Shown here in pieces: positions 23,228-26,705 of a stretch of DNA of 64,000 bases. Under the pieces are notes generated by a model. That model had not been told where the DNA came from. It saw only the letters and a program-made list of their open reading frames with translations, and did no database searches. A program made the position numbers and the translations under genes. The stretch spans positions 1,271,579-1,335,578 of the forward strand of contig NC_007955.1 in NCBI RefSeq assembly GCF_000013725.1. Direction: 5' to 3'. The stretch is from Methanococcoides burtonii DSM 6242 (GTDB lineage: Archaea > Halobacteriota > Methanosarcinia > Methanosarcinales > Methanosarcinaceae). Every line of letters begins with the position of its first letter. Position 1 is the first letter of the stretch.

Positions 23228-24448
23228 TCAGTCCGGGATCTCCAACCTGTATACCCTGTCATTTTCACGCACCTTATCCTTGACAGCAATTCCCACGATA
23301 TCCCCTGAGGATGCAGATAGGACAGGACCTTCATCCGACCTTATTTCAGTGATATCCTGTTCAAAGTATGTACTTTTGCCTTCGATGATAATGTGGTCTC
23401 CAACAGCGATACCCGTTTCGAGAAGCTTTACTTCCGCCGCCCCGCTCTTCCTGTAATAATTGGTAACCACCCCTACAGCGTGTCTTTTGGTAGTTGATAC
23501 GTTCATATCAGATTCGATGGAAATACCATCCGGACCGGGTACCCCGAAGTAGAACCCCGTGGAAAAGCCACGATTAAATACCGAAGCCAGCTCGTCTTTC
23601 CATGACCTCGCTTTTTCAAGTGTATATGAACCATCACAATAGGAATTGAGGGCTTCACGATAACAGCGGGATACAATAGATGTGTATCTAGCATCCTTCA
23701 ACCTGCCTTCGACCTTGAATGCATTCACACCAGTATCTATCAGCTCAGGGATGTGTTCGATCATGCACAGGTCCCTCGCACTTAACAGATATTTCCCTTC
23801 AAGGTCGACCTCGCTGCCATCCTCACCAACAAGTTTCCAACCCCATCGGCACGGTTGGGAACACTCACCACAATTACCGGACTTGCCCAGAATATAAGCG
23901 GAAAGGTAGCACCTGCCAGAGATAGCCTGACACATGGCACCATGAATGAAAACCTCAAGCTCAACATCAGTGTTCCAGCGGATCTCCTTTATATTCTCCA
24001 TACTGAGTTCCCTTGCCAGAACGACCCGGGAAGCCCCCAAAGAACCATAGAATTCTACTGTCTGCCAGTTCGATACATTCGCCTGAGTAGATATATGAAC
24101 CCTCAGTCCGGCATCTACTGCTTTTGTTATTACTGCCGGATCCCATGCAATGACAGCATCAACATCCGAGGATGCGACTGAATCGATAACAACATCAAGA
24201 TCATCAAGGTCATCGGGATAGATCACCGTATTCAGCGCAAGATAAGCATTGAGATCATTCTCTTTGATATCCCCTACAAAATCGTTGAGACCATCAAGTG
24301 TAATATCACATGCTCTTGCTCTGAGACTGAATCTGTCGATGGAGAAGTAGACCCCGTCTGCATAGTCCCTGCACGCAGCCAGAGATGCACGATTCTTGAC
24401 ACCCATCATAAGTTCAGGGATCTTTACAGATGATCCAGAGCAGTTCAT
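23228..24448 (-). CDS. Peptidase U32 family protein (likely RNA hydroxylation/collagenase-like)
   Basis: 406 aa from the ATG at 24448. The family core is clear: LRVHISTQANVSNWQTVEFY, then LEVFIHGAMCQAISGRCYLS and SGNCGECSQPCRW with its four cysteines, and INAFKVEGRLKDARYTSIV-like sequence. U32 proteins include the tRNA/rRNA hydroxylation factors TrhP and RlhA as well as putative collagenases; the target here is unknown. There is no Shine-Dalgarno, and TTTAAA lies about 25 bases before the ATG, so the message is probably leaderless. Confidence 0.85.
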   Translation of the reverse strand: MNCSGSSVKIPELMMGVKNRASLAACRDYADGVYFSIDRFSLRARACDITLDGLNDFVGDIKENDLNAYLALNTVIYPDDLDDLDVVIDSVASSDVDAVIAWDPAVITKAVDAGLRVHISTQANVSNWQTVEFYGSLGASRVVLARELSMENIKEIRWNTDVELEVFIHGAMCQAISGRCYLSAYILGKSGNCGECSQPCRWGWKLVGEDGSEVDLEGKYLLSARDLCMIEHIPELIDTGVNAFKVEGRLKDARYTSIVSRCYREALNSYCDGSYTLEKARSWKDELASVFNRGFSTGFYFGVPGPDGISIESDMNVSTTKRHAVGVVTNYYRKSGAAEVKLLETGIAVGDHIIIEGKSTYFEQDITEIRSDEGPVLSASSGDIVGIAVKDKVRENDRVYRLEIPD

Positions 24449-24528
24449 GGAGTAGCATCGTAAATGATGGTTTAAATCAGTTATTGTTGGAAACGAAAAA
24501 GAGAGAATGTAAGTGAGTGATCGAGATA

Positions 24529-24999
24529 TCACTTGATAGGAACATATATCTCAGTAAGGATATCTTCAGGAGGAACGTCATGAGGATCGTTAAGATATGC
24601 TTCTCTCTTAAGACCGGTAATTTTTAAACCATTCACATCTATCCATGCAAAAAGTTCCTGATAAGTAGGACCGGTATCTTCATAAGGACCATTGTGAACC
24701 ACCTTCACCATATTCCCACCGGGAAGTTCGTAGCACTTGACATCACCGACACCCTCGATCTTTTCAGATACAGGAATGACAGCTTCCAAATCTGCATTGC
24801 CTTCAGAATTGGCCCTCATGATATCTTCTTTACTGGTCTCATGCGTGACATAAATTGGCGGACCGGCGATCTCAATATTATTTTTGACAGCAAACTGGCT
24901 TATTTCAGTGAACAAGATAGGAAGCAAACCGTACTACCCGGTCCGCCTGACCCCGATGACTACCTGCGGCTCAATTTCAACTATGCATATATCAGACAT
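24529..24999 (-). CDS. GyrI-like / effector-binding domain protein with in-frame amber codon (possible pyrrolysine)
   Basis: Reading from the ATG at 24999 gives MSDICIVEIEPQVVIGVRRTG, then TAG at 24934-24936, then YGLLPILFTEISQFAVKNN and an intact domain to the TGA at 24529, 156 aa in all, the usual size for this family. Downstream hallmarks are IEIAGPPIYVTHE, GDVKCYELPGGNMVKVVHNG and PYEDTGPTYQELFAWID. A TATA box, GGTGG eight bases before the ATG and the start codon all precede the TAG, so the gene looks expressed. In pyrrolysine-using archaea the TAG may be read through. Alternatives: a TTG start at 24927 gives a 132-aa form, or this is a recent nonsense mutation. The domain binds small hydrophobic effectors or gyrase-type partners. 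Confidence 0.7.
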
Positions 25000-25020
25000 T
25001 CCAACAACCACCACAATTAT

Positions 25021-25033
25021 TGTATAATATAAC
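25021..25033 (-). promoter_or_regulatory. TATA box of the amber-containing GyrI-like gene
   Basis: GTTATATTATACA on the minus strand, about 25-35 bp before the ATG at 24999. With GGTGGTT just before the start it shows that translation begins upstream of the amber codon. Confidence 0.55.
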
Positions 25034-25117
25034 TCGTACCCAGAATCTTAGTTATTGATATCAATGATATATTCAGGTATAAATATTTCGCATGAACGTT
25101 CAATAGCTCTCCAGAGA

Positions 25118-25444
25118 TCATTCCCCGACAAATGGACGGGATACCCTGATAATAATAACTGACACCAGACCCCAGGCAAACGGAAGCCAGAGTGGTATGT
25201 TAAAGAAAAAAGGAGCTGCGTATGTCCAGACCCCGAGATAAGTGCCGATGAACTCTGCACTACATCCAATAATGACACCGGATACAAAAACGATATTATC
25301 CCCTTTCTCAGACCAGAAATATTCCCGTATGCCATATATCGATAATATCAGAAAGGTTAGTAAAAGGTTGTTTTCCCAGAAAAGTACTGCTACTATCAGT
25401 GCAAGTGCAAAGATAAGCAAGTCCCTGAAAATTGCTTTTTTCAT
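25118..25444 (-). CDS. Small multi-pass membrane protein, function unknown
   Basis: 108 aa from the ATG at 25444, which has GGAG six bases upstream; the ATG at 25456 has none. It has four hydrophobic segments: DLLIFALALIVAVLFW, LLLTFLILSIYGI, IVFVSGVIIGCSAEFIGTYL and FNIPLWLPFAWGLVSVIIIR. The motif EFIGTYLGVWTYAAP around the third helix looks conserved-family-like, but I cannot name the family. It is monocistronic, next to the decayed region. Confidence 0.6.
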   Translation of the reverse strand: MKKAIFRDLLIFALALIVAVLFWENNLLLTFLILSIYGIREYFWSEKGDNIVFVSGVIIGCSAEFIGTYLGVWTYAAPFFFNIPLWLPFAWGLVSVIIIRVSRPFVGE

Positions 25445-25508
25445 GTAGTTCTCCATGCAGCACTAGAAATCATAATTATATAAATAAAATTTGGGGCTTA
25501 TAGTGGTC

Positions 25509-25597: not shown

Positions 25598-26669
25598 TCA
25601 AATCATATTGAAATACAACAGCAGAGCAAGTAATAACAATACGACACCTGTAACGAACCTTATCGAAGAACGTCTTTTTTCCGGAATTGCATTGCAGATT
25701 CAGGACTCAAACCGAACGCCAGAAATACACCCAACACTAACACCGGAAGCACAACTCCAAAATTGTAGATGAAGATATACACAGCAACCTCCAGCAGATC
25801 GGTTCTTGCTATTAACATATCCAGGATAGAAAGATAACAGCACCTACGCAAGGAGCTTTGACAAATGAGAATAAGCCGTCTGCAAAGAACGATAGAACAA
25901 GAGCATTCTTCCCGTGTATGTTGTCCATAAAAGATACTATTGAACCTGGTGTTTAAAGGTCAATCTTGAATGGCGCTTGAGGTGATATGGATCATAGATA
26001 TGCCAGATACCGGGAACTCCTATCAATACCATCATGAATAATTTGATAGATCGCCTTGATCCGGGGAAGATAGTGACAGCTTTCAGGAAACTTATTCCGA
26101 ATATCATGTCAGTGGTGAATATACCGGCGCAGAAGCCACCGATGACCACCAGCATTTCTTTCTTCCCACCGTTGGAGGATATCGTGACCGAAGCCAGAAA
26201 TGTCATCACTGCGAGAAGGCAGGAATTGAAGCCGGTGAGCAGACCTGTGATCAGTACAATTAGAGGAGATAGTTCAAAGGGAGTGACGTTTTCGCCATAT
26301 TCTTCAACTCAGGGGAGAGTACCATTGACCGAAATTACCGGTGCATTCTCAATAGCTTCTATCAGCATTTTTCTAGTAATACAGCATCCCCATAGTAATC
26401 GGAATAGGCGATAACCGTACTCTTGTTTATGACAATAGCAGGAACAGTGTAGACCCATATCCTTTCATGATGTTATAGGAGGTAGCTATGTTGTGATTTA
26501 TGTAATTGATACTGTCATAACTGCCGATAACGGAATCTATGACAGGGGATGTTTGCTGGCATTTCAAACAGCCGTCCTCGTAAAAATATTCTACCAGAAC
26601 TTCGTCTGACAGGGCTGTTGAAGCAAGGCTCATGCTTGAGATCGCAAGCATAAGGAGGAGTAAGATCAC
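25598..26669 (-). pseudogene. Decayed thioredoxin-CcdA-type membrane protein gene
   Basis: Fragments in different frames join into one protein. A signal peptide and thioredoxin-like part with EYFYEDGCLKCQQTSPVID comes first, then VPAIVINKSTVIAYSDYYGD, and after a shift MLIEAIENAPVISVNGTLP with a TGA at 26309-26311. A CcdA-like membrane part follows: GFNSCLLAVMTFLASVTISS, GGFCAGIFTTDMIFG, then LFSFVKAPCVGAV and YNFGVVLPVLVLG, ending at a TGA at 25598. I count about five frameshifts and one internal stop. Two shifts fall in A-runs, so sequencing error could explain part but not all. The intact family moves reducing power across the membrane. Confidence 0.8.
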
Positions 26670-26705
26670 TACAGATTTAGTGGCATACTATCGTAGCACA
26701 TATCT

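Follow-up and report, generated by a model that had tools for sequence, protein, structure and literature searches.

The GyrI-like gene of Methanococcoides burtonii DSM 6242 carries an in-frame TAG at codon 22, and we put at about 0.68 the probability that this codon is a neutral or mildly harmful gain of pyrrolysine (Pyl) at which UAG is partly read through. Codon 22 would ancestrally have been a sense codon, most simply AAG for Lys, that was mutated to TAG in M. burtonii. The UAG would then be contested between release factor and Pyl-tRNA(CUA); a fraction of ribosome passes, which we infer to be a partial one, would give the full 156-residue protein with Pyl, and the remainder would stop after 21 residues. 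Partial reading as pyrrolysine is expected because the cell has the genes for making pyrrolysine and for charging tRNA-Pyl(CUA). The change may have persisted as a neutral or mildly harmful one because it lies where a strand passes into a helix, at a variable site that accepts many different residues, in an accessory gene.

The window, that is, the whole stretch of 64,000 nucleotides that was analysed, contains the gene on the reverse strand (Table 1). The frame consists of ATG, 20 codons, TAG, 134 codons and TGA, and the TAG is its sole internal stop. This bore out the first-pass annotation, which had read the frame from ATG at 24999 through the TAG to a TGA and had described an amber codon inside an otherwise intact GyrI-like gene. 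The same family is present on both sides of the codon, as had been claimed: PF06445 (GyrI-like) covers residues 4-156 at 95.9 bits (curated cut-off, 26). Since the part after the TAG scores 76.4 bits against PF06445 by itself, the TAG lies inside one domain. The M. burtonii genome is a single contig of 2,575,032 bases, and a search of all of it gave one GyrI-like match, at this gene, with one TAG inside. The protein had no match in NCBIfam, and a scan of genome contigs gave three loci, one of them in a congener. Full-length relatives (n = 11) have 156-161 codons, so that the 156 residues are, as proposed, usual for the family. At the matching place, ten of them start with ATG and one with TTG.

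Table 1. Positions of the features discussed, in window coordinates unless a locus or residue range is named
Feature	Position	Strand	Remarks
GyrI-like gene	24529..24999	(-)	156 codons with TAG read through; TGA end; PF06445
In-frame TAG	24934..24936	(-)	codon 22; AAG (Lys) in four congeners, AGT (Ser) in two nearest
Predicted tryptic peptide if TAG is read as pyrrolysine	residues 20-39		TG-Pyl-YGLLPILFTEISQFAVK
Putative TATA-like box	25025..25032	(-)	TTATATTA; 26-33 bases 5' of ATG; chosen by eye
Putative ribosome-binding-like GGTGG, G-rich	25008..25012	(-)	9-13 bases 5' of ATG; chosen by eye
Shorter frame from TTG after TAG	24529..24927	(-)	132 aa; without first strands; disfavoured
Peptidase U32 family, downstream neighbour	23228..24451	(-)	PF01136; start 24451 placed from relatives
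Small upstream neighbour	25118..25456	(-)	membrane protein by look; adjoins U32 where GyrI is missing
Decayed thioredoxin/DsbD-like gene	25600..26680	(-)	approximate limits; five single-base gaps versus open G022 copy
TAG histidine kinase, M. burtonii	G000:C1:2425302-2426924 (L118:803-2425)
TAG histidine kinase, ten congeners	L119-L124, L126-L132, L134, L144, L168-L171		19 loci
thiI	L049:4523-5698	(-)	TAG where 10/10 congeners have Tyr (TAT or TAC)
UppS-like gene	L054:5461-6120	(-)	TAG where 10/10 congeners have Glu/Asp; GAG in four nearest

Stretches resembling a promoter and a ribosome binding site, both picked by eye, lie 5' of the ATG, which agrees with their earlier placement before the TAG. 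In M. vulcani and some other congeners, TATAAATA-like boxes stand 33-40 bases 5' of the ATG (by eye), and the G-rich counterpart in congeners is GGGGT or GAGGTG, about 6-11 bases 5' of the ATG. The order U32, GyrI and small membrane-like protein is the same in five congeners having the GyrI-like gene. No Pfam match was found for the small upstream neighbour. The decayed DsbD-like gene, 600 bases from the GyrI-like gene, provides a local yardstick for a real pseudogene; it has an end-to-end match in a single piece in G016, G021, G022 and G023.

The genome has the means to decode UAG. As the first-pass annotation had advised checking, pylS, pylB, pylC and pylD are all present; they pass NCBIfam equivalog cut-offs and stand in a row with tRNA-Pyl (anticodon cta). 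The two mtmB genes and the full-length mtbB have one in-frame TAG each. A dimethylamine methyltransferase family match in two pieces, with TAG and TAA, was also seen at G000:C1:2414612-2416746 and is probably a broken second mtbB copy. To survey TAG codons, we applied a simple home-made gene caller, which is blind to a TAG near the start such as that of the GyrI-like gene, to 464 kb of sequence, namely the window plus twenty 20-kb stretches. The 430 called genes ended apparently with TAG in 22 cases, TAA in 181 and TGA in 225. The frame stayed open for at least 60 codons past the stop in 10 of 22 TAG-ended genes, against 24/181 for TAA and 28/225 for TGA. Seven TAG-ended genes with a continuation below 15 codons were left out, and the other 15 were looked at. 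By domain or ortholog, 6 of the 22 contain a clear in-frame TAG (two MtmB, ThiI, UppS-like, a GNAT acetyltransferase and a histidine kinase). Outside this clear set fall L058, pylB, a rhodanese-like gene, L056, L044 and the second L047 frame, some of them resembling true ends, and L053, L052 and L039, which had no match in Pfam. In pylB (L055:8250-9362, (-)), 42 further open codons follow the TAG end over pylC; this TAG end has already been described for M. burtonii (PMC2933860, available text). The BirA-like gene (L058:18171-19700, (+)) ends with two consecutive TAG codons, and its frame stays open for 187 codons into a separate-looking protein.

For ThiI and the UppS-like protein, codon models were fitted to 8 of 11 sequences each, from one start and with topologies set by hand. 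ThiI is single-copy, with dN/dS of 0.065-0.073 against the four nearest relatives and a branch omega of 0.057. A null allele of ThiI is thus unlikely, though its TAG too could be young. The branch omega of the UppS-like gene is 0.151, and there is also a distant paralog that has no stop. The TAG codons of the UppS-like, GNAT and kinase genes could be young as well. Since ThiI, UppS-like, GNAT and two histidine kinases have an in-frame TAG, UAG is unlikely to simply abolish genes here. The pyl genes, the tRNA-Pyl and the in-frame TAG codons of mtmB and thiI together indicate that UAG is probably read as pyrrolysine in M. burtonii, at least part-time, in line with the earlier supposition that it can be so decoded. 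A PYLIS-type structure at the GyrI UAG was rejected: the 103-base stretch beginning at the UAG folds less stably than shuffled sequences (z +1.64), with no stem-loop beyond chance expectation.

To place the TAG among relatives, codon 22 was compared in 15 of them, the second G074 copy being left out. The residues are Ala (5), Lys (4, all AAG), Ser (3), Met, Pro and Asn (1 each), and the two nearest relatives, at 71-72% identity, have AGT. Three of the 15 (L014, L015 and L021, all from Methanosarcinaceae) align only piecewise, with the pieces in different frames, and probably have a broken frame. TAG was found in 0 of the 15. Conservation of the TAG across the GyrI-like family, proposed earlier as a check, is thus rejected, and retention of UAG in orthologs, the mark of a required Pyl, is not seen. 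Because no relative has TAG at this variable site, a single-base change of AAG to TAG in the M. burtonii lineage is the simplest origin that the alignment suggests. The earlier statement that the site usually has Lys or Pro holds loosely: five of the 15 have one or the other, and Ala is the commonest.

A different pattern was found for a histidine kinase that lies outside the window. When 111 family genomes were searched with the M. burtonii kinase (with no more than 25 candidates per genome scored), the 20 best-scoring relatives among the matches listed were all from Methanococcoides and represented all 11 genomes of the genus that were examined. TAG stands at one identical codon of the ATPase domain in 20/20 copies (LKFTPENGCI-Pyl-IN in M. 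burtonii); for this set L144 was used and L125 was masked by a longer frame. The copies differ at fourfold sites by a median of 45% (6-69%). Among 231 alignment columns, 88 have the same residue throughout and 9 the same codon, and the TAG column is one of the nine. Kinases of other genera (n = 19, from as many genomes) have Lys, Thr, Trp, Ser, Cys, Glu, Phe or Ala there and none has TAG, and the other Methanococcoides histidine kinases among the matches listed have no internal stop. Judged from these alignments, the clade shows long-term sense use of UAG in Methanococcoides. Its TAG has the pattern expected of a selected pyrrolysine, a pattern that GyrI does not have, and is a candidate for such a residue in a signalling protein; the kinase clade is the stronger case of the two. 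A histidine-kinase cluster with in-frame UAG has been described in M. acetivorans, M. mahii and M. barkeri (PMC3639795, available text).

Further kinases also contain TAG codons. The L135-L137 kinases have TAG two columns earlier in the same domain (GG-Pyl-V/I), and the L103-L105 kinases have a nearby TAG (RG-Pyl-V), so that in-frame TAG recurs in the ATPase domain. In another M. burtonii kinase (L047:18131-19975 (-)) and its counterparts in three close congeners, the TAG stands at different codons: Ser occupies the M. burtonii TAG position in the congeners, and the congeners' TAG position in M. burtonii.

Structure models were computed from a three-row alignment; the best had a pLDDT of 80.7 and the other four 45-54. 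In the best model, strand 12-22 ends with residue 22, and helix 23-39 follows directly. This model has the GyrI-like family fold and matches CtR107 (3e0h, 5kax) and the C-terminal domain of EcmrR (6wl5) in PDB at TM-scores of 0.80-0.86; the sequence match to 3e0h has an E value of 2.5e-9. The protein would thus be a stand-alone GyrI-like domain of the small-molecule-binding type, presumably with a ligand. No DNA-binding domain was found in the 156 residues, whose domain matches are GyrI-like and Cass2 only. The DNA-binding part of an effector-binding transcription regulator of the AraC/MerR type is therefore not seen, and the term regulator is unsupported.

Retention of the gene is patchy. Among 11 genomes of the genus, M. 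burtonii included, the GyrI-like gene is whole in 8, missing in 2 and a fragment in 1. Aligned to the window, G016 and G023 break off at about 24,506 and pick up again at about 25,117, so that the neighbours are there without the gene; the G016 genome is 76% complete, and its contig spans the GyrI place. G024 keeps only residues 123-155. These losses, together with the pieces in L014, L015 and L021, indicate that loss of GyrI is tolerated. The gene is accessory in Methanococcoides.

Constraint on the frame was estimated with a codon model of 9 sequences, from two starts and a hand-set topology, with codon 22 left out. The omega of the M. burtonii branch was 0.268 against a background of 0.144 (2dlnL 2.80 against equal, 8.38 against 1), which is about twice the background and not significant. 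The branch omega was 0.321 after the TAG (2dlnL 3.61 against equal, 4.83 against 1) and 0.064 before it (2dlnL 6.15 against 1), the latter a rough value from 21 codons. The frame thus shows constraint both before and after the TAG, perhaps weaker than that in relatives; since the TAG may be very young, this constraint may all predate it. The TAG is the only pseudogene mark, with no gaps and omega below 1, and a young TAG would look alike. No gap and no second stop were found in the frame, although its DNA identity to G021/G022 is 67-81%; over about 24,450-25,200 the identity to these two falls to 67-82%. Amino-acid changes unique to the lineage number 15-22 in M. burtonii versus 5-12 in the sister (14 overlapping comparisons). 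The dS of the GyrI segment is 0.64-0.89 versus 0.17-0.38 for five neighbours, about two to five times as high. Because silent-site divergence is also high, plain relaxed selection is probably not the whole cause, and it is likely that recombination replaced the allele at window positions 24450-25200 in one of the lineages.

Several other explanations have to be weighed against a neutral or mildly harmful gain of Pyl. The amber codon may be a step in the loss of an expendable gene, with most ribosomes stopping at residue 21 and read-through incidental. The absence of the gene in two congeners and the remnant in G024 agree with this, as do the three frame-broken family relatives, the faster protein change and doubled branch omega in M. 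burtonii, and the neighbouring DsbD-like gene that has already decayed. However, branch omega is below 1 on either side of the TAG, the frame has neither a second stop nor a frameshift, and the pyl machinery renders UAG leaky or sense. We consider gene loss unlikely, although it deserves more weight than the explanations that follow. UAG might also be a standing sense codon in Methanococcoides, the amount or ligand pocket of the GyrI-like protein being dependent on Pyl and the full-length form tracking the methylamine/Pyl state. Such dependence would extend to the histidine kinases with fixed UAG, where the evidence for selection is far better. For GyrI, the absence of TAG from all 15 relatives and the missing or truncated gene in 3 of 11 genus genomes leave a functional role for the Pyl residue unsupported, and we regard this dependence as quite improbable. 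The new Pyl regulator that the first-pass annotation had suggested is partly supported: the pyl genes and the in-frame TAG codons of other genes speak for it, whereas the TAG is not conserved, no DNA-binding domain was found and the gene is not retained throughout the genus.

A sequencing error or a mutation of the laboratory strain, with AAG in wild cells, would need a single base changed relative to the codon that four congeners have, and would fit a TAG known from one genome only. The genome was, however, assembled as a single contig, and since other in-frame TAG codons occur in it, one more is unremarkable; such an error is very improbable. We give least credence to translation from the TTG at 24927 or later, which was rejected as the main account. 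The open frame exists and its product still matches the GyrI-like domain, but the 11 full-length relatives begin upstream, the 21 codons before the TAG seem constrained (omega 0.064, rough), the TATA-like and G-rich signals sit 5' of the ATG, and strands 5-9 and 12-22 of the model would be lost.

The GyrI-like gene is a clear case of UAG turning up in an ordinary gene where the genome also has a pyl cassette, and bears on whether UAG is stop, sense or both in such archaea. Some archaea reportedly read all TAG codons as Pyl, as was argued in 2025. Two testable classes emerge: UAG in one species (GyrI, ThiI, UppS-like) and UAG fixed in the genus (the histidine-kinase clade), and in the latter a role of Pyl outside methyl transfer could be real. 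Gene callers will truncate proteins with an in-frame UAG of the GyrI kind.

Nothing linking pyrrolysine to GyrI-like proteins was found in the open-licence literature searched, and the available portions of PMC1242214, PMC11363022, PMC3941956 and 2026 papers contain nothing on a GyrI-like TAG gene. Pyl in an effector-binding protein had been expected to be new, but proteins of this kind beyond the methyltransferases are already known, namely Thg1, transposases and a TetR-family regulator (PMC2933860, PMC3639795 and PMC8211752, available text).

Among known systems, the CtR107 protein of Chlorobium and the C-terminal domain of EcmrR resemble the GyrI-like protein in predicted fold, although EcmrR is a MerR-family regulator and no DNA-binding domain was found in the M. 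burtonii protein. We know of no Pyl in CtR107 or EcmrR. The GyrI-like cyclopropanoid hydrolases (PMC5684135, available text) are alike by domain-family name alone. MtmB, MtbB and MttB share the in-frame UAG, with TAG in MtmB and MtbB of M. burtonii; there UAG is a conserved trait read as Pyl, whereas in GyrI the site is variable and UAG is seen in a single species. In MtmB, a PYLIS-type element raises Pyl insertion and is not essential, and UAG introduced in M. acetivorans is read at an apparent 20-30% (PMC2933860, available text). The TetR-family regulator and transposases of M. acetivorans are annotated Pyl candidates outside the methyltransferases, and neutral evolution has been discussed for UAG in other genes (PMC3639795, available text). 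These candidates stand in conserved clusters, in contrast to the unconserved TAG of GyrI, for which no DNA-binding part was found. Thg1 (tRNA-His guanylyltransferase) of M. acetivorans is like GyrI in that one species gained the amber codon and the homologs lack it; the codon can be decoded as Pyl, and this Pyl is dispensable for Thg1 activity (PMC2933860, available text). Thg1 is a different protein with physical evidence of Pyl, whereas the GyrI-like case is known from its sequence. A neutral gain of Pyl, as for Thg1, fits the GyrI-like gene best, with ongoing loss of the gene as the main rival.
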